Assembly: GCF_003344885.1 (NCBI RefSeq)
Contig: NZ_CP031155.1
Span: 2,621,327 to 2,685,326, forward strand
Direction: 5' to 3'
Origin: Altererythrobacter sp. ZODW24
Lineage (GTDB): Bacteria; Pseudomonadota; Alphaproteobacteria; Sphingomonadales; Sphingomonadaceae
Length of the DNA stretch: 64,000 nucleotides
A program made the position numbers and the translations under genes. Below are positions 8,253 through 15,471 of this stretch, in pieces. The notes under the pieces were generated by a model. The model saw nothing but the letters and a program-made list of their open reading frames with translations, was not told the origin of the DNA and ran no database searches. Numbering within the stretch: position 1 is the first letter of the stretch; the number at the start of each line of letters is the position of its first letter.

Positions 8253-9106
8253 TGGATGATAGCGGCGAACGTCTGGGCCCCAAGTCCAGCGAAGGCGAAA
8301 TGCGGAAGCGACGGTTCGGCGGGCGCGGGCTGTCACTCCGCTCGGTTGTGCCCAATGCAATAACGGCAGCGGCTATGTGCTCGGGCCTAACCGGCATTCG
8401 CTTTGCTATTGTTGGTAATTGGGAAATGTGCCTCTTTGCGATCATTCTGGCTGGCGTGCTGGACGGAATTGATGGGCGGATTGCCCGCTTGCTTAAAGCG
8501 CAGTCCCGGTTTGGGGCCGAGCTGGACAGTCTGGCTGATTCCCTGTCGTTTGGCATGGCGCCAGCGCTGATTATCTATCTTTGGTCGCTGCAAGATTGGC
8601 CACGCTTTGGCTGGTTCGCTTGCCTTGCGTTCGCGCTGGCGGCCACTTTGCGTTTGGCGCGCTTCAATGCCCAGATCGACGAGGACGAACAACCGCACAA
8701 ATCCGCTGGTTTTCTCACCGGCGTACCCGCGCCCGTTGGGGCAGGGTTGGCATTCCTGCCGTTCTACCTCTGGATTGCTACAGACATTGAGCAATTCCGC
8801 GACCCGATTCTCAACGCTGCCTGGATCGCTTTCATGGCGTTTTTGATGATTTCCAACATAGCGACGCTCAGTTGGTCGGCGATCAAGCCTCAACGAAGCA
8901 TTCGTCTCGAAATGATTTTCGGTATCGGGATTCTCTTCGCGGCATTGCTTAGCGAGCCATGGTGGACGCTCGTCGCGATCTGCGTTGGCTATCTGTCTCT
9001 AATGCCGCTCGGCATAATCAAATATAGCCGGGTTAAGCGGCAACTTGAAGCTGAGGATATTCTGCCGCCTGTTGCACCGCTCGACGTGAAACAGCTGCCG
9101 AAATAG
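8252..9106 (+). CDS. pssA: CDP-diacylglycerol-serine O-phosphatidyltransferase
   Basis: Makes phosphatidylserine from CDP-diacylglycerol and serine; the product is the substrate of the preceding gene. This 284-residue membrane protein has the CDP-alcohol phosphotransferase signature with metal-binding Asp71, Asp74, Asp92 and Asp96 and the AR pair at 78-79. Several hydrophobic segments fit six to eight membrane spans. The start overlaps the psd stop (TAATG). The last 74 bases overlap, on the opposite strand, the end of the small gene at 9033-9305. Confidence 0.95.
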   Translation: MDDSGERLGPKSSEGEMRKRRFGGRGLSLRSVVPNAITAAAMCSGLTGIRFAIVGNWEMCLFAIILAGVLDGIDGRIARLLKAQSRFGAELDSLADSLSFGMAPALIIYLWSLQDWPRFGWFACLAFALAATLRLARFNAQIDEDEQPHKSAGFLTGVPAPVGAGLAFLPFYLWIATDIEQFRDPILNAAWIAFMAFLMISNIATLSWSAIKPQRSIRLEMIFGIGILFAALLSEPWWTLVAICVGYLSLMPLGIIKYSRVKRQLEAEDILPPVAPLDVKQLPK

Positions 9107-9305
9107 GCGTTACAGTTGCCGGTGCACGCGTGGTGCGGCGCTCTTTCTCAAAGCTGATAGTCACAACACGCTGGTTGCCGCAGAAGGCAGCTTCGCGGCG
9201 CAACCGGCCGTAGCTGGCGAATGCACAGTAATAACTGTCAGCCAAGGTGGTCATGGTGAGGGCACCAATTGCGACAAAACCAGCGGTGATAACAAAAGCG
9301 AGCAT
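9033..9305 (-). CDS. Small single-pass membrane protein, unknown
   Basis: A 90-residue frame starting at ATG 9305, with AGGACG seven bases upstream. Residues 1-22 are hydrophobic (LAFVITAGFVAIGALTMTTLA) and could be a signal peptide or membrane anchor. Two cysteines follow near 28 and 42, then a basic, Thr/Ala-rich tail. The last 74 bases run antisense to the end of pssA. The ribosome binding site, placed directly before a clean hydrophobic N-terminus, supports a real gene; the function is unknown. Confidence 0.6.
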   Translation of the reverse strand: MLAFVITAGFVAIGALTMTTLADSYYCAFASYGRLRREAAFCGNQRVVTISFEKERRTTRAPATVTPISAAVSRRAVQQAAEYPQLQVAA

Positions 9306-9662
9306 CGTAATCGTCCTATTCCGATTGTCCGCAAGCCTGTTGACAAGCTGTGGACATTGGGTGGAGAACATCAATTCAACGATTGTGTTCCGCCGATAAG
9401 GGTAATGTTCCCTATTTGTTCCGCTCTGTCAAGCGGCATCGGCGATATTCCGCATTCTATTTGCGGTGAATTGAGGCTAGCTTTCTCTGCCAGCCCTCGC
9501 TAGATGACGCTCGCTTCGCGAAGATTCGGCCGATTTTGGCCAATTCAAAGCAAGCAAATGCCTACGGGCAAATTCACATGGAAAGCGCTCATACCGGTGC
9601 CGACGCGGGTTCTCCGCAGATGGTTCCAGCTTTCCAGAGGTATAACCGGAAGGAATTTACTT
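9306..9662. other. Intergenic region upstream of rpsB
   Basis: 357 bases between the divergent small membrane protein and rpsB. It must hold promoters for both. TTGACA occurs at 9340-9345 on the plus strand without a matching -10. A T-rich, lower-GC section lies around 9380-9470. A long 5' leader for rpsB is possible. I see no open frame with a plausible start in it. Confidence 0.5.
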
Positions 9663-10442
9663 ATGGCGGCACCTACCGTCACGATGCAGCAATTGATTGA
9701 AGCCGGATCACACTTCGGCCACCAAACCCACCGCTGGAACCCACGCATGAAGCCGTATATTTTCGGCGCGCGCAACGGTGTTCACATTATCGATCTGTCG
9801 CAGACCGTTCCGCTTTTCGCGCGTGCGCTCGACTTCATTTCGTCGACCGTAAAATCGGGCGGCAAGGTTCTGTTCGTTGGTACCAAGCGTCAGGCGCAAG
9901 AGCCTATCGCTGAAGCAGCCCGCGCTTCGGGCCAGCATTTCGTCAACCACCGTTGGCTGGGCGGCATGCTCACCAATTGGAAGACCATCAGCGGTTCGAT
10001 CAAGCGTCTCAAGACACTTGAAGAACAGCTCGGCGGAGAAATGTCCGGTCTGACCAAGAAAGAGACCCTTCAGCTGACGCGCGAACGCACGAAGCTGGAA
10101 CTGTCGCTTGGCGGTATCCGCGACATGGGCGGCATTCCTGACGTCATGATCGTCATCGATGCCAACAAGGAAGAGCTCGCAATTAAGGAAGCCAACGTTC
10201 TTGGTATTCCCGTGGTTGCCGTTCTCGACACCAATGTCGATCCAAGCGGTATCGCATTCCCGATCCCGGGCAATGACGATGCAGCACGCGCTATTCGCCT
10301 CTATTGCGATGCGATCAGCGAAGCGGCTCGTAAGGGCGGCGATCAGGGTGTGGTAGATTCGGGTGCCGATATCGGTTCCATGGAAACTCCACCGGCAGAA
10401 GCCGCAGCTGAAGCCTCCACTCAGGCCCCGGCTACGGCCTAA
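9663..10442 (+). CDS. rpsB: 30S ribosomal protein S2
   Basis: S2 binds the 30S head-body junction and helps recruit S1. This 259-residue protein starts [15 protein letters not shown] and carries the family signatures [10 protein letters not shown] near the N-terminus and a [12 protein letters not shown] stretch. The last 25 residues are an Ala/Glu/Pro-rich tail common in alphaproteobacteria. An in-frame start at 9504 would add 53 residues with no family support. ATG 9663 has GGAAGGA about ten bases upstream and matches the conserved N-terminus. tsf follows after a hairpin. Confidence 0.97.
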
Positions 10443-10484
10443 GAGGTTGCGCTGCTGAAGCGCGATCCTATCTGAAAGAACAAC

Positions 10485-10517
10485 GGGCGCGCCGGACCAC
10501 CAACTGGTCCGGCGCCC
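10485..10517 (+). terminator. Hairpin between rpsB and tsf
   Basis: GCCGGACC (10491-10498) pairs with GGTCCGGC (10506-10513) and GGGC (10485-10488) with GCCC (10514-10517), leaving a two-base bulge and a seven-base loop. The sequence TTCACATTTTAT follows rather than a clean T run. It probably attenuates or marks a processing site, so tsf could be made at a different level from rpsB. Confidence 0.65.
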
Positions 10518-10545
10518 TTCACATTTTATAAAAGGACACGGAACA

Positions 10546-11472
10546 ATGGCTGCATTCTCAGTCGCTGACGTAAAAACACTGCGCGAAAAAACCGGCGCAG
10601 GCATGATGGACGCCAAGAAGGCGCTGACCGAAGCTGGCGGCGACATCGAAGCCGCTGTTGACGCATTACGCGCCAAGGGCCTCGCCACTGCACAGAAGAA
10701 GTCCAGCCGCACCGCGGCTGAAGGCCTCGTCGGCGTTGCCGTTGAAGGCACCAAGGGCGTTGCTGTCGAAGTGAACTCGGAAACAGACTTCGTTGCGAAG
10801 AACGACCAGTTCCAGGCATTCGTGCGCAACACCACCACCGCCGCGCTTGGCGTTGCGGGTGATGATGTTGAAGCGCTCAAGGGCGCTGCGTACCCGGATG
10901 GCGGTACCGTTGCTGACAAGCTGACCGACAACGTTGCGACCATTGGTGAAAACCAGCAAGTCCGCCGCATGAAGACGGTTTCTGTCTCGAACGGCGTTGT
11001 TGTTCCTTACGTCCATAACGCTGCTGCGCCGAACCTCGGCAAAATCGGCGTTCTGGTTGCGCTGGAAAGCGAAGCGGGCGCGGACGTTCTCGAAACGCTC
11101 GGCAAGCAGCTGGCGATGCACATCGCTGCCGCATTCCCGCAGGCGCTGAACGCTGAAGGCCTCGACGCTGAGCTGATCGCCCGTGAGCGTTCGATCGCTG
11201 CCGAAAAGGCTGCCGAAAGCGGCAAGCCTGAAAACGTGCAGGAAAAGATGGTTGAAGGCGCGGTGAACAAGTTCGCCAAGGAAAACGCGCTTCTCAGCCA
11301 GGTTTTCGTGATGGATAACAAGACACCTATCGCTCAGGTCGTGGAAGCTGCCGGCAAGGCCGCAGGCTCCGCAATCGTGCTGAAGGACTACGTCCGCTTC
11401 CAGCTCGGCGAAGGCATCGAAAAGGAAGAAAGCGACTTCGCAGCAGAAGTCGCAGCTGCTGTTGGCGGCTAA
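10546..11472 (+). CDS. tsf: Elongation factor Ts
   Basis: Nucleotide exchange factor that reloads EF-Tu with GTP. The 308-residue protein has the N-terminal UBA-like module with the MDAKKAL signature (residues 21-27), the TDFVAKN core motif around 78-84, and the C-terminal dimerisation half. GGACAC lies about seven bases before ATG 10546. A strong terminator at 11502-11536 follows, so the usual tsf-pyrH linkage is broken here. Confidence 0.97.
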
Positions 11473-11501
11473 GCTTTTCGGCCTTTCTGGCTAAACATCA
11501 C

Positions 11502-11536
11502 GGCCGCCGGATTCTCACGGGTTCGGCGGCCTTTTT
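11502..11536 (+). terminator. tsf Rho-independent terminator
   Basis: GGCCGCCG (11502-11509) pairs perfectly with CGGCGGCC (11524-11531) and is followed by TTTTT (11532-11536). Confidence 0.92.
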
Positions 11537-11567
11537 GTGCGTGGCATAAGGCCTTCGGCGACCCGTT

Positions 11568-11646
11568 AGGGTGACAAAGGTTACACCGTGTCACCCTCGA
11601 TATACCGCTTAACCTGTTGAAAATTAGTGTGACATGAGAGGGTGAC
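11568..11646. repeat. Cluster of TGACA-type repeats
   Basis: AGGGTGACA (11568-11576) and its exact reverse complement TGTCACCCT (11589-11597) form a 9-base perfect inverted repeat with a 12-base spacer. GTGTGACA (11627-11634) and AGGGTGAC (11639-11646) repeat the motif in direct orientation. It could be a regulator site or a degenerate dispersed repeat. Confidence 0.7.
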
Positions 11647-11837
11647 GGACAGGGTGCAGGGGCTTTATCCGCGCGCTGTTCGAGAACAGTTCCCATAGCT
11701 GGCGCGACTTACAGATAGCTGACGATGTGAAAGAACATCGCTGCCATAGCGGGAGTGGAGCCTGTAGGAAAATGGGTTGCCTTGATCGTTTGCTTTTCGG
11801 CACCCATCACAATGATGCTATGACCACTACTGGGTGG

Positions 11838-11867
11838 AAAGCGGACATTGGCGGCTGTTAAATTGCG
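11838..11867 (+). repeat. Left arm of imperfect inverted repeat
   Basis: Contains the ordered blocks AAAGCGG, GGCGGCT and AATTGCG. The same three 7-mers occur in the same order in the reverse complement of 12573-12604, on the far side of the gene at 11941-12567. The spacers between blocks differ slightly (5 and 4 bases here, 3 and 8 there). Confidence 0.65.
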
Positions 11868-11940
11868 ACGACCTGCTTTTGAGTGGAATACATCCCCGCA
11901 ACATAATACGATCGTGGTGGTTATTCGAGGAACTTAACAC

Positions 11941-12567
11941 ATGCGAGGGATTGTCAAGCGAAGCGCCAAAGGACTTATACTTTTATCTGTCGGTGCCATC
12001 TTTGGCCCCGTATTGATTGCGGCTGTGAGTGCCGCTTATACCGTAAGCCGTGGCCAAGAATCTAGGGAATCCAACGAAGCAAGTCGTCTAGTAGAGGCTT
12101 ATCGTGAGAGACTGCCTGTCCACCATCTGTTTTTGTCCACGCGCCTTCCCGAAGACGGGCAGGAGTGTGGTTACAATCCGGATCAAGTCTTCCCGAAGCG
12201 GTTCGAACAACTGGATGTGAGTTTGGCTAGTCATAAATTCTCTGATTACGCGGGATATTGGTATATGGATCGTTGGAGAAATAAGACCCGAGATGAAGAA
12301 TATATAGAGGCTATAATCCAGTCGATAGATGATGATCTAAGCGATTTTGAAACAGGTTTTCTTCGCCGTTGTATCGAAGGCACTCTTTTCAGTTCTTTAT
12401 GCATGGACCGTGTCAGTGGCCGTGGCGATACGGTCAAACGGTTCGATCATGGGCGACCAGCTTGGCCAATGGCAGGATACGGCGTTGAGGATCAGATAGT
12501 TTGCACTTACGTTGATGGAGTGGCTGCGCGGCAAGGCATTTCGCTTGTAGAACGCCCGACAAAATAA
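11941..12567 (+). CDS. Unknown membrane-anchored protein
   Basis: A 208-residue protein with one N-terminal membrane segment (about residues 11-33) and a soluble, probably periplasmic domain with four cysteines near 79, 143, 153 and 188. I do not recognise the family. GAGGAA lies seven to nine bases before ATG 11941, a good ribosome binding site. Codon use differs from the neighbours: ATA, TTA and AGA appear repeatedly, and the base composition is AT-richer. It sits between tsf and pyrH, which are normally adjacent, and is enclosed by an imperfect inverted repeat. This suggests a later insertion. The function is unknown. Confidence 0.72.
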   Translation: MRGIVKRSAKGLILLSVGAIFGPVLIAAVSAAYTVSRGQESRESNEASRLVEAYRERLPVHHLFLSTRLPEDGQECGYNPDQVFPKRFEQLDVSLASHKFSDYAGYWYMDRWRNKTRDEEYIEAIIQSIDDDLSDFETGFLRRCIEGTLFSSLCMDRVSGRGDTVKRFDHGRPAWPMAGYGVEDQIVCTYVDGVAARQGISLVERPTK

Positions 12568-12572
12568 ATGTC

Positions 12573-12604
12573 CGCAATTGGGTCGTTAGCCGCCAGACCG
12601 CTTT
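12573..12604 (-). repeat. Right arm of imperfect inverted repeat
   Basis: Its reverse complement carries AAAGCGG, GGCGGCT and AATTGCG in the same order as 11838-11867. It starts six bases after the stop codon of the enclosed gene. Confidence 0.65.
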
Positions 12605-12703
12605 TAGAGTACCATAACCCTCCACAGGCTTTCCCTTTGCGCGTATGCGGCCATGCGGCTAAGGAACGCCGCAACCTGAAACCAGTTGGATTCTTCTCGC
12701 CCT

Positions 12704-13438
12704 ATGACACTCCCTGCATCGGCCCCCGATTACAAGCGCATCTTGCTCAAACTCTCGGGCGAGGTGTTGATGGGCGAACAGGATTACGGGATTGACCCGG
12801 CTTACGTCGCGCGTCTCGCTGAAGAAGTGAAGGCGGCCAAGGAAACCGGCCTTGAAGTCTGTCTGGTTATCGGTGGCGGTAATATCTTTCGCGGTGTGGC
12901 CGGTGCTGCGCGCGGGCTCGACCGCACGACCGGCGATTACATGGGTATGCTCGCGACCGTGATGAATGCGCTCGCGATGCAAAATGCGCTGGAGCAGATC
13001 GGTGTGCAGACGCGGGTTCAGTCGGCCATTCCGATGGCTTCGGTGTGCGAGCCTTACATTCGCCGCCGTGCGGAGCGGCACTTGCAGAAGGGCCGCGTCG
13101 TGATCTTCGCAGCAGGCACGGGCAATCCGTTCTTCACGACCGACACTGGCGCTGCTTTGCGCGCTGCGGAAATGGGCTGCGACGCTTTGCTGAAAGGCAC
13201 CAGCGTCGACGGGGTGTATGACAAAGACCCCAAGGGCAATCCCGACGCCGTGCGTTTCGACACAATCACTTATGGGCAAGTCCTGTCCGACAATCTTAAA
13301 GTTATGGACGCAACCGCCGTTGCGCTTTGCCGCGAAAACAGCATTCCTATCGTGGTCTTTTCGATCCGCGAGCGCGGCAATGTGGCCAAAGTGCTCAAAG
13401 GCGAAAGCGTCCAGACAATCGTTCAAGGGGGATCCTGA
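12704..13438 (+). CDS. pyrH: Uridylate kinase
   Basis: Phosphorylates UMP to UDP, feeding pyrimidine nucleotides into RNA and envelope precursors. The 244-residue protein has the amino acid kinase fold with KLSGEVLMG near the N-terminus, GGGNIFRG around residues 60-67 and the nucleotide-binding [13 protein letters not shown] stretch. A TTG at 12686 is in frame, but ATG 12704 gives the normal N-terminus. No clear ribosome binding site is visible. frr starts two bases after the stop. Confidence 0.96.
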
Positions 13439-13440
13439 TC

Positions 13441-13998
13441 ATGGCCAAATACGATAAATCCGACATCGAACGCCGCATGGCGGGCGCCGTCGAAGCGCTG
13501 AAGAGCGACCTTTCCGGACTGCGAACCGGGCGCGCCAATGTGACCTTGCTCGATCCGGTGATGGTTGAAGTTTACGGCGCTTTGATGCCGCTCAATCAGG
13601 TGGCGACTGTGTCCGCCCCTGAACCGCGCCTGCTGAGCGTGCAGGTCTGGGACAAGGGCAATGTAGTTCAGGTCGAAAAGGGCATCGCCAAGGCGGGCCT
13701 TGGCCTTAACCCGATGACCGATGGCCAGAATGTCCGTTTGCCGATCCCCGATTTGACCGAGGAGCGCCGCAAGGAGCTGTCCAAGCTGGCCGGTCAATAT
13801 GGCGAAAAAGCCAAGATTGCCGCGCGCAATGTGCGCCGCGATGCGATGGAATCGCTGAAGGATGACGAAAAGGCGAAGGAAATCTCCGAAGACGAGCGCA
13901 AGCGTCTCGAGGATGAAGTCCAGAAAATGACCGATAAATATGTCGGCGAAATCGATGCCGCTTCCGAGCATAAGGAAAAGGAAATCATGACCCAGTGA
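13441..13998 (+). CDS. frr: Ribosome recycling factor
   Basis: With EF-G it splits the post-termination ribosome. The 185 residues match the family length exactly and carry the conserved [13 protein letters not shown] segment (about 24-36) and the C-terminal helix. It lies two bases downstream of pyrH, the near-universal pyrH-frr pair. An in-frame start further upstream at 13327 lies inside pyrH and is rejected. Confidence 0.97.
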
Positions 13999-14017
13999 TC
14001 GCTAGGTCATCGCTGCT

Positions 14018-14074
14018 CCGTTCGCCTCGAGCGAAGTCGAGAGGCAGTGTCTCGACTTCGCTCGACACGAACGG
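14018..14074. repeat. Palindromic repeat before uppS
   Basis: Two 25-base arms (14018-14042 and 14050-14074) are reverse complements except for two positions, with a seven-base loop. The core GTCGAGCGAAGTCGAGA is a motif I recall as a widespread intergenic palindrome in Sphingomonadales genomes. Its right arm ends ten bases before the uppS start, leaving almost no room for a free ribosome binding site. Confidence 0.85.
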
Positions 14075-14084
14075 TTTCTGACTT

Positions 14085-14771
14085 ATGGCAACTGGATCAA
14101 CCCCGCGCGCAAAGCATGTCGCCATCATTATGGACGGCAATGGCCGCTGGGCGAAGCGCAAGCATTTGCCGCGCGCGATGGGGCATCAGCGCGGCGTCGA
14201 GGCGGTTCGCAAGCTTGTTCGCAACGTCGAAGGCATGGGCATCGATTGCCTGACGCTTTACGCTTTCTCGTCGGAGAACTGGAAGCGGCCTGCGGAAGAA
14301 GTCAGCGACCTGATGGGGATGCTCCGGAAGTTCATAAAATCGGACTTGCCTGAGTTCATTGCCAATGACGTTCGCTTGAAAATTATTGGCGATTACAAGG
14401 CGCTTGAACCGGACATTGTCGCGCAACTTGAAGATGCGCTTGAGCGCACTTCCAAGGGTTCGCGCATTCTGGCGGTGGCGCTGAATTACGGATCGCAGGA
14501 CGAAATCGTCCGCGCTGCCAGCGCTGCGGCGCAGGCTGGCGAAGTTACTGCTGAGAGCATTGCGGCTAACCTAGACACCGCCGATCTGCCGCCGCTCGAT
14601 CTGCTGATCCGCACAAGCGGCGAGGTTCGGCTTTCGAACTTCCTTCTGTGGCAAGCGGCCTATGCCGAAATGCTGTTTGTGGATACGCTGTGGCCCGACT
14701 TTACGCCTGAGCATTTGCAGCAAGCCTTAGACAATTTTGCCGACCGGGAGCGACGTTATGGTGGACGCTGA
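14085..14771 (+). CDS. uppS: Undecaprenyl diphosphate synthase
   Basis: Adds cis-isoprene units to farnesyl diphosphate to make the lipid carrier for peptidoglycan and other surface polymers. The 228-residue cis-prenyltransferase has HVAIIMDGNGRWAK with catalytic Asp17 and Asn19, and the second signature LLIRTSGEVRLSNFLLWQ near the C-terminus. No usual ribosome binding site is visible because a palindromic repeat ends ten bases before ATG 14085. The 3' end overlaps cdsA by 14 bases. Confidence 0.95.
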   Translation: MATGSTPRAKHVAIIMDGNGRWAKRKHLPRAMGHQRGVEAVRKLVRNVEGMGIDCLTLYAFSSENWKRPAEEVSDLMGMLRKFIKSDLPEFIANDVRLKIIGDYKALEPDIVAQLEDALERTSKGSRILAVALNYGSQDEIVRAASAAAQAGEVTAESIAANLDTADLPPLDLLIRTSGEVRLSNFLLWQAAYAEMLFVDTLWPDFTPEHLQQALDNFADRERRYGGR

Positions 14772-15471
14772 AACAGTCGCCCCAGCTAAGAAACCAGACC
14801 TGATGGTGCGCGCTGTTTCCGCCATCGTGATGATCGCCGTGCTTGCTGTGGCGGTTTGGCAAGGTGATCCACTGCTGGGCCTGTTTATCTATCTGGTCGC
14901 TGCGGTGTGCTTTGTGGAGTTTATTATGCTGGTCGTGAAGGCGACGCAGAATGTGCCCTTCCGCCTCGCCGCGATCTTGGCGGGCGCGGTGTATATCGGC
15001 GTTGCGGCAAGCGTGCTGGCGGATATTGATCTGCTTTATTTTGCCTCTGCAGTCGGCGTCGTCATATTCACCGATACATTCGCCTATTTCTTCGGTCGCG
15101 GGATCGGCGGACCAAAGATTGCGCCCAAGATCAGCCCTTCCAAAACATGGGCAGGCCTGCTTGGCGGGATGATCGGCGCCGCGCTATTTCTGAGCATCAT
15201 TGTGCTCATCTATCACTACACCATCCATTATGAGTCTTTCTTGGAACTGCTTGAAGAAGCATCGCCTGAGATGATTCCTGCAGCGATCATCGGGGCTGTG
15301 CTCGCCGTCGTGGCGCAGATGGGCGACTTCTTTCAGAGTTGGCTCAAACGTAAGGCGGGGGTGAAGGATTCTTCCAAACTGATCCCGGGGCACGGCGGAA
15401 TTTTCGACCGGATTGATGGTCTGCTGCCGGTGGCGCTGGTTGTCGGTATTCTCGCCAATATGGCGACCTAA
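14758..15471 (+). CDS. cdsA: Phosphatidate cytidylyltransferase
   Basis: Makes CDP-diacylglycerol from phosphatidic acid and CTP, the common precursor for pssA and pgsA, both also in this window. The 237-residue multi-span membrane protein ends with the CTP transferase signature: QMGDFFQSWLKRKAGVKDSS followed by IPGHGGIFDRIDGL. It is shorter than the E. coli enzyme (about 285) but normal for this clade. GGGAG lies about nine bases before ATG 14758, inside uppS; the next codon, GTG 14761, is an alternative. Confidence 0.94.
   Translation: MVDAETVAPAKKPDLMVRAVSAIVMIAVLAVAVWQGDPLLGLFIYLVAAVCFVEFIMLVVKATQNVPFRLAAILAGAVYIGVAASVLADIDLLYFASAVGVVIFTDTFAYFFGRGIGGPKIAPKISPSKTWAGLLGGMIGAALFLSIIVLIYHYTIHYESFLELLEEASPEMIPAAIIGAVLAVVAQMGDFFQSWLKRKAGVKDSSKLIPGHGGIFDRIDGLLPVALVVGILANMAT

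Follow-up and report, generated by a model that had tools for sequence, protein, structure and literature searches.

Is the orphan gene between tsf and pyrH of Altererythrobacter sp. ZODW24 a gene cassette? Direct copies of a dispersed 31-bp palindrome and a compact tyrosine recombinase

How do lone accessory genes of unknown function settle between housekeeping genes without a transposon? This is an old open question, and it is raised in a simple form by a locus in Altererythrobacter sp. ZODW24. The locus lies in a window of 64,000 nucleotides (the whole stretch of DNA analyzed, positions 2,621,327 to 2,685,326 of contig NZ_CP031155.1; window coordinates are used below). Here, tsf (10546–11472, with its stop codon at 11472) is followed by an open reading frame (ORF) of 208 amino acids on the + strand, ORF X (11941–12567), and then by pyrH (12704–13438, start 12704). 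The GC content of ORF X is 0.490 and that of its third codon positions (GC3) 0.431, against 0.595 and 0.667 for tsf and 0.593 and 0.694 for pyrH. This agrees with a sequence-only reading of the window, which had picked out an unknown gene with different codon use at this place, enclosed by what it took for inverted repeats. We consider it rather probable that ORF X is a cassette, now sedentary, and belongs to an integron-like system with loxP-like sites and a mini tyrosine recombinase rather than attC sites and IntI.

The repeated site on either side of ORF X

Both arms around ORF X are copies of a dispersed 31-bp imperfect palindrome, AATGTCCGCAATTGGGTCGTTAGCGGACATT, the flanks of which are not conserved. 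The left copy (11819–11849, + strand) is degenerate, agreeing with the consensus at 23 of 31 positions, and scores 36.5 bits with R1, a site model made from 21 ZODW24 copies only, and 21.0 bits with a wider model, R2. The right copy (12567–12597, + strand) agrees at 27 of 31 positions and scores 41.9 bits with R1; its first base is the final base of the ORF X stop codon, TAA. In the alignments, the site is 30–31 bp long, with palindromic arms TGTCCGC ... GCGGACA around a conserved asymmetric center of about TTGGGTCG. Forty-three aligned copies (30–31 nt) share TCCGC..GGGT..GCGGAC, and their consensus has no GTTRRRY. With the right arm as query, 25 matches at E ≤10 were found in the ZODW24 genome; apart from the arm's match to itself, the strongest had E 1.3e-5. 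R1, with matches counted at E ≤0.05, finds 32 sites in ZODW24, 23 each in G012, G015 and G321 (a member of another family), 13 in G031, 10 in G002 and 9 in G001 (the two genus mates), and six in G029; at least one match is present in 40 of 59 relatives' genomes. The copies are short, mostly intergenic palindromes, and R1 scores of 30–36 bits are reached at Sphingomonas and Dyella loci. The arms are thus found well beyond the tsf–pyrH gap.

The three 7-base blocks noted earlier in the arms are present as read. They do not make an inverted repeat, however, since the two copies are direct; the blocks pair because each arm carries a copy of one imperfect palindrome. (By itself the likeness of the arms is weak: aligned locally, they give an inverted score of 27, which is reached by 1.7% of random 68-bp pairs from the window, and a direct score that is also 27.) The start of the unit accordingly moves from 11838 to 11819, and the unit is bounded by direct repeats. 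With both copies on the + strand, the earlier idea of a transposon-like inverted-repeat unit had to be given up, as did a composite transposon or a miniature inverted-repeat transposable element recognized by its terminal inverted repeats. An RNA element was likewise rejected for ZODW24: its 21 copies show no covariation, and Rfam gave nothing near cut-off for 9000–15000. The wider set of 43 copies has some covariation, as the arms of a DNA site would too. The gap contains no transposase-like ORF, as had been stated, and the genome has no Y1_Tnp match, other transposases not having been searched for genome-wide. No target-site duplication was noticed in the site-border alignments, in which no systematic search for one was made.

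Arrays, single genes and borders

If the sites are recombination sites, how are they arranged with respect to each other? Adjacent sites 100–5000 bp apart point in the same direction in 25 of 25 cases among the matches listed, which extend to about E 0.01 (0.0095); ten of these pairs are in ZODW24, six in G012, five in G015 and four in G321. (Three pairs less than 100 bp apart, two opposed and one in the same direction, were excluded.) In ZODW24, among the same matches, all ten near pairs agree, against 10 of 19 pairs more than 5 kb apart (Fisher p 0.011). The direct clusters of ZODW24 include L100, L101, L103 and L141. Since the far pairs are mixed, a global bias does not explain the agreement of the near ones, and a direction set by replichore was rejected. 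At four named loci searched with R2 at ≥25 bits, 21 of 21 neighboring pairs agree, although R1 is the fairer test, since R2 was built in part from loci later searched with it.

The clearest array is that on a chromosome of Dyella sp. OK004 (L299), where 15 sites, spaced 0.2–1.8 kb apart and mostly with one small gene between successive sites, reach a recombinase gene; by R2 all 15 are on the + strand, and R1 leaves one undecided. Other arrays are bipolar. At a locus in a Sphingomonas metagenome-assembled genome (MAG; L276), three – sites lie to the left of the recombinase and three + sites to the right, and in G015 (C56; L249, L148) the sites to the left are – (weak, 14–17 bits) and those to the right +.

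Between neighboring sites at 24 loci there are 50 intervals, and 36 of them contain a single predicted gene, as mapped with a simple gene finder and with a good part of the 36 coming from the Dyella array. In these 36 intervals, the stop codon is close to a site (median 6 bp; ≤3 bp in 11) and the start codon farther away (median 50.5 bp; ≤3 bp in none), and the genes run with the sites in 11 cases and against them in 25. ORF X fits this pattern, its TAA overlapping the right site by one base and its start codon being separated from the left site by a leader of 91 bp (11850–11940, + strand). Codon scores of enclosed genes are lower than those of other genes in the loci (51 vs 107 genes, p 7e-8); G000 and G015 show the difference clearly, whereas G012 (p 0.38) and G321 (p 0.17) do not. 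The products include methyltransferases, a beta-lactamase-family protein, an alcohol dehydrogenase, a LysR regulator, proteins with domains of unknown function (DUFs) and proteins without a family. PADLOC, run on 41 proteins (40 from enclosed genes and one from G002), recognized one family, in one protein. This cassette anatomy is well supported.

Do the sites also mark what differs between sister species? At four loci compared in this way, shared DNA gives way to unshared DNA at a site on at least one side. In the tsf–pyrH gap, the alignment with ZODW24 from 12567 on takes in the site of G002 and some 20 bp beyond it, and nothing aligns before the site; the right arm is thus a presence/absence border, because G002 shares the site at 12567 and has another gene before it. 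Strong identity to both genus mates restarts in the pyrH leader (12621–12703, + strand). At 1033 kb, ZODW24 has a site–gene–site segment that is missing in G017, where the flanking genes abut; identity with G002 ends there at a stop codon that precedes the left site by 5 bp, and it restarts about 5 bp beyond the right site. At 1157 kb, the whole segment is missing in G017, and the alignment to G001, which has a diverged site-like sequence, restarts at the end of the site. At 1980.7 kb (L178 vs L179), the alignment to G002 crosses the left gene into the site and stops at the site's far edge. The right flank is unmatched in 20 kb of G002, and since at least 17 kb beyond the site have no match to it, synteny may break at the site. 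(Assumed collinearity mostly failed to locate the G002 counterparts of loci.)

The two genes had been called normally adjacent. Both could be placed in 28 relatives, and in 20 of these they are indeed adjacent (gap ≤221 bp); in the other eight, ZODW24 included, the gap is 0.97–1.74 kb. In both genus mates the gap contains other ORFs, those of G002 (pyrH 98% identical) being of 155 and 117 amino acids. Other genes, mostly without visible sites, occupy the gap in G017 (L070), G004 (L076), G008 (L077), G010 (L098), G011 (L072) and G001 (L097), and some of these relatives have ORFs that by eye look phosphoesterase-like or hydrolase-like. The position may be tolerant of insertions in general. Upstream of the gene that precedes tsf there is a weak R1 match (9324–9358, – strand, 15.6 bits, E 0.076), either a decayed copy or chance.

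ORF X itself has few relatives. It matches nothing in Pfam or NCBIfam, and there is no homologue in the two genus mates. Besides itself, 298 family genomes gave one clear homologue (G010, 46%), weaker matches down to E 0.007 being left out of the count; 396 genomes of the order gave one (G392, 38%), and plasmids one (47%, on pP6W1 of Novosphingobium sp. P6W). Phages and the named genomes gave no match. All four proteins of the family have a hydrophobic stretch at the N terminus and share four invariant cysteines, which suggests a membrane-anchored, disulfide-bonded envelope protein. A single-sequence fold prediction was uninformative (predicted local distance difference test, pLDDT, 39.2), and a profile search of the PDB with the family gave one match, at E 0.92. 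The stop codon of the plasmid homologue overlaps a weak site of 16.1 bits that has the same direction, with E 0.083 when 200 kb are searched and E 0.0011 when the search covers 2.6 kb; a candidate site before the gene scores 5.3 bits and is suggestive at most. In sum, the gene is not present in all relatives, the arms occur elsewhere, and on the right side they coincide with a presence/absence border. With the arms recurring and homologues few, the earlier description of a gene captured between dispersed repeats, as a non-autonomous cassette, is supported.

A compact tyrosine recombinase

Which enzyme could act on these sites? A gene within the G321 array encodes a 208-aa tyrosine recombinase that consists of the catalytic domain only (Phage_integrase, PF00589, E 4.6e-21). 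Tyrosine recombinases have the catalytic residues R, K, HxxR, H and Y, and the alignment of this family retains those positions. The array recombinases of G321 and G015 have seven NCBIfam matches each, all far under cut-off (the best 62 of 220 bits), and DNA-invertase models match them weakly. Alignment of the predicted structure (mean pLDDT 85.6) gives Z 18.7 with XerA (164 residues, 2.7 Å) and Z of about 17–18 with Cre; an integron integrase also aligns (Z 16.0, 6.2 Å), and the fold thus does not settle the subfamily. The gene lies in or beside site arrays in G321, G015, the Sphingomonas MAGs and Dyella. In ZODW24 it is a pseudogene at 1167.2 kb, preceded at a distance of 42 bp by a composite site that scores 20.5 bits. 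Since the gene has two in-frame stops, the ORF X cassette is probably sedentary now.

Among the 59 genomes, a recombinase profile matched 15, two of which (E about 9e-13) were set aside as Xer-like background. Twenty or more sites were found in 4 of the 13 genomes that have the recombinase gene, intact or disrupted, and in none of the 46 that lack it (Fisher p 0.0016; p 0.005–0.010 with thresholds of 5, 9 and 13 sites), values that are optimistic because the 59 genomes are related. A scan of named genomes found 583 relatives of the recombinase, and 80 loci were kept. R2 at ≥25 bits gives 33 positions in 7 of these 80 and none in 53 control loci (199 kb), where the best score is 20.8 bits. Just downstream of the recombinase (≤200 bp) there are 13 of 88 R1 hits, against 1.3 expected. 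In the 73 recombinase loci without arrays, the figure is 10 of 42 against 0.6. In two further Sphingomonas MAGs, the recombinase match is followed by a site that starts 2 bp away in one and 10 bp away in the other. Similarly, the half-site AGCGGAC[AG]TT occurs downstream in array-free loci six times in 21.9 kb against 0.42 expected, and a looser motif, which was chosen after reading the sequences, 21 times against 1.4. When the 80 loci were searched de novo for arrays of palindromes, L299 and L297 alone gave clear examples, and L297 is not independent of G321 C24.

Recombinase genes of this family are seen on plasmids across the Proteobacteria (L251–L253, L354, L355 and others, including E. 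coli and Klebsiella), where the copies are annotated merely as tyrosine-type recombinase or site-specific integrase. Of 422 plasmid records with the recombinase, 172 are typed conjugative. In the literature searched, no role for the family on plasmids was found.

How the cassettes may move, and what they resemble

These observations suggest a simple scheme. A cassette would be a circle carrying one gene and one site, which would recombine with a resident site and be inserted as site–gene–site in direct order; repeated insertion would build arrays. The crossover would fall within the site, and the enzyme is most likely the compact, catalytic-domain-only recombinase of about 208 amino acids found in or beside the arrays, a role proposed from sequence and genomic position. 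In Cre and Xer systems, the centers of the two sites must match and set the direction of recombination. A requirement of this kind would explain both the conserved TTGGGT center and the direct arrays.

Besides the relatedness of the genomes and the silence of the fold on the subfamily, several observations weigh against this interpretation. The left border at tsf–pyrH is not at the left site (11819): identity with G002 stops near 11613, apart from a short block at 11760–11777 (17 of 18 bases identical in an otherwise diverged left part), judged by eye to be perhaps the remnant of an older site, where the model gave no match. The border comparison proposed earlier is thus borne out on the right side only. 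The gap of G001 holds a DUF389 gene and no clear site. At 1157 kb the left border does not coincide with a site, and at 1033 kb no clear site is seen in the inserts of G001 and G002. No site adjoins the ORF X homologues of G010 and G392. When the threshold is lowered to 19 bits, 30 of 32 neighboring pairs agree in direction and two, both in G012, are opposed. G005 and G028 have an intact recombinase with no array nearby, and G025 and G028 no site by R1; conversely, G031, G002, G001 and G029 have 13, 10, 9 and 6 sites yet no recombinase. Only 8 of the 80 named recombinase loci have R1 matches of ≥20 bits. Plasmids often carry members of the family (451 records), and four plasmid or phage copies that were scanned had no good sites.

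Could the anatomy be right and the enzyme wrong? Host XerC/XerD, or a recombinase that was lost or is plasmid-borne, might move the cassettes, with the mini recombinase a frequent cargo. The genomes with 6–13 sites and no family member would fit, as would the many plasmid copies without visible arrays. However, the recombinase is embedded in arrays or ends them in different classes of bacteria, and sites or half-sites are enriched just downstream of its gene even outside arrays, so we regard this alternative as unlikely. Somewhat less likely still is a spread of the palindromes by a transposase, like repetitive extragenic palindromes (REPs) and their paired forms (REPINs), in which homologous or illegitimate recombination would exchange the genes between them, much as in minimal mobile elements. 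Short, mostly intergenic, dispersed copies in 40 of 59 relatives and degenerate arms speak for it. So do inverted doublets in G321, about 20–30 bp apart (L154, 2441–2527 and 2945–3025; L157, 2045–2131), which are REPIN-like and count against a cassette system; one member of such doublets has a different center, TTGGCTA. ZODW24, on the other hand, has no Y1_Tnp match, in a search whose control was positive in 5 of 14 genomes, and a palindrome family driven by a REP-associated tyrosine transposase (RAYT) was rejected there. Nor would this explain the direct near pairs (25 of 25 among the matches listed), the 15 of 15 Dyella sites, the stop codons close to sites or the neighborhood of the recombinase.

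Two further explanations can hardly be credited. A degenerate integron, or cluster of attC sites lacking an integron integrase (CALIN), with sites that are short relatives of attC, would account for arrays, same-direction palindromic sites, mixed accessory genes and a tyrosine recombinase at one end of the Dyella array; yet the sites are 30–31 bp with no GTTRRRY box in their consensus, and the array recombinases tested fall below all NCBIfam cut-offs and lack the N-terminal domain. The other is that ORF X is an ordinary inserted ORFan between chance matches. The similarity of the two arms by itself, at the 1.7% level, would allow this, but the site has 32 matches in the genome and scores 30–36 bits at Sphingomonas and Dyella loci, which refutes it.

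Beyond ORF X as a sedentary cassette, a wider proposal may be made, on which we are evenly divided: that a second, integron-independent system of cassette capture exists in Alpha-, Beta- and Gammaproteobacteria, in which a mini recombinase, sometimes itself a cassette, gathers single genes at 30-bp loxP-like sites into direct or bipolar arrays, a conserved center fixing the direction. The scattered sites of Erythrobacteraceae such as ZODW24 would then be its sedentary remains, with turnover at the sites. Neither the repeat nor its association with the recombinase was found described in the open-access literature searched (preprints and most subscription papers being outside its scope), where the exact repeat strings led to unrelated papers only. 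If the mini recombinase does act on these sites, many orphan genes of Proteobacteria could belong to a single cassette system, and a 30-bp pattern could serve to list them, which would make the question of how they settle testable. The recombinase would be a directional tool of unusually small size, and the many plasmids that carry it suggest a route of spread.

How does such a system compare with those already known? Like integrons and CALINs, it has arrays of mostly single-gene cassettes with accessory and unknown genes, imperfect palindromic sites in one direction and, in Dyella, a tyrosine recombinase at the array. However, attC sites are about 57–141 nt long and have RYYYAAC and GTTRRRY boxes, whereas the sites here are 30–31 bp without attC boxes. 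The recombinase of about 208 amino acids has the catalytic domain only, and the array enzymes of G321 and G015 are not IntI by NCBIfam. Of the genes in the 36 single-gene intervals, 11 have the direction of the sites and 25 the opposite one, and arrays are bipolar around the recombinase in G015 and L276, again unlike integrons. With Cre–loxP, Xer and FimB-type recombinases the enzyme shares the predicted fold (XerA, Cre), the R/K/HxxR/H/Y positions and a weak DNA-invertase match, and the site, with inverted arms around an asymmetric center, looks like a loxP- or dif-type core site. It differs in being a mini recombinase without an N-terminal domain, below all NCBIfam cut-offs and found with cassette arrays.

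In minimal mobile elements, conserved genes flank a place where alternative genes are found. This is also seen here, except that the borders lie at a shared repeat resembling a recombination site and not only at conserved flanking genes. REPs and REPINs are alike in being short dispersed palindromes, with inverted doublets in G321; on the other hand, the whole ZODW24 genome has no RAYT-type gene (no match in the Y1_Tnp search), and the arrays are direct with genes between the sites. The dif modules (pdif) of Acinetobacter have two-armed sites of about 30 bp with a short spacer that bound gene modules moved by tyrosine recombinases, and neighboring sites alternate (inverse) in orientation (PMC13141974). 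Modules bounded by such sites are common to both, and the difference is in the near sites, which here are direct in 25 of 25 cases among the matches listed. We group the system with cassette arrays, although it may form a separate class.
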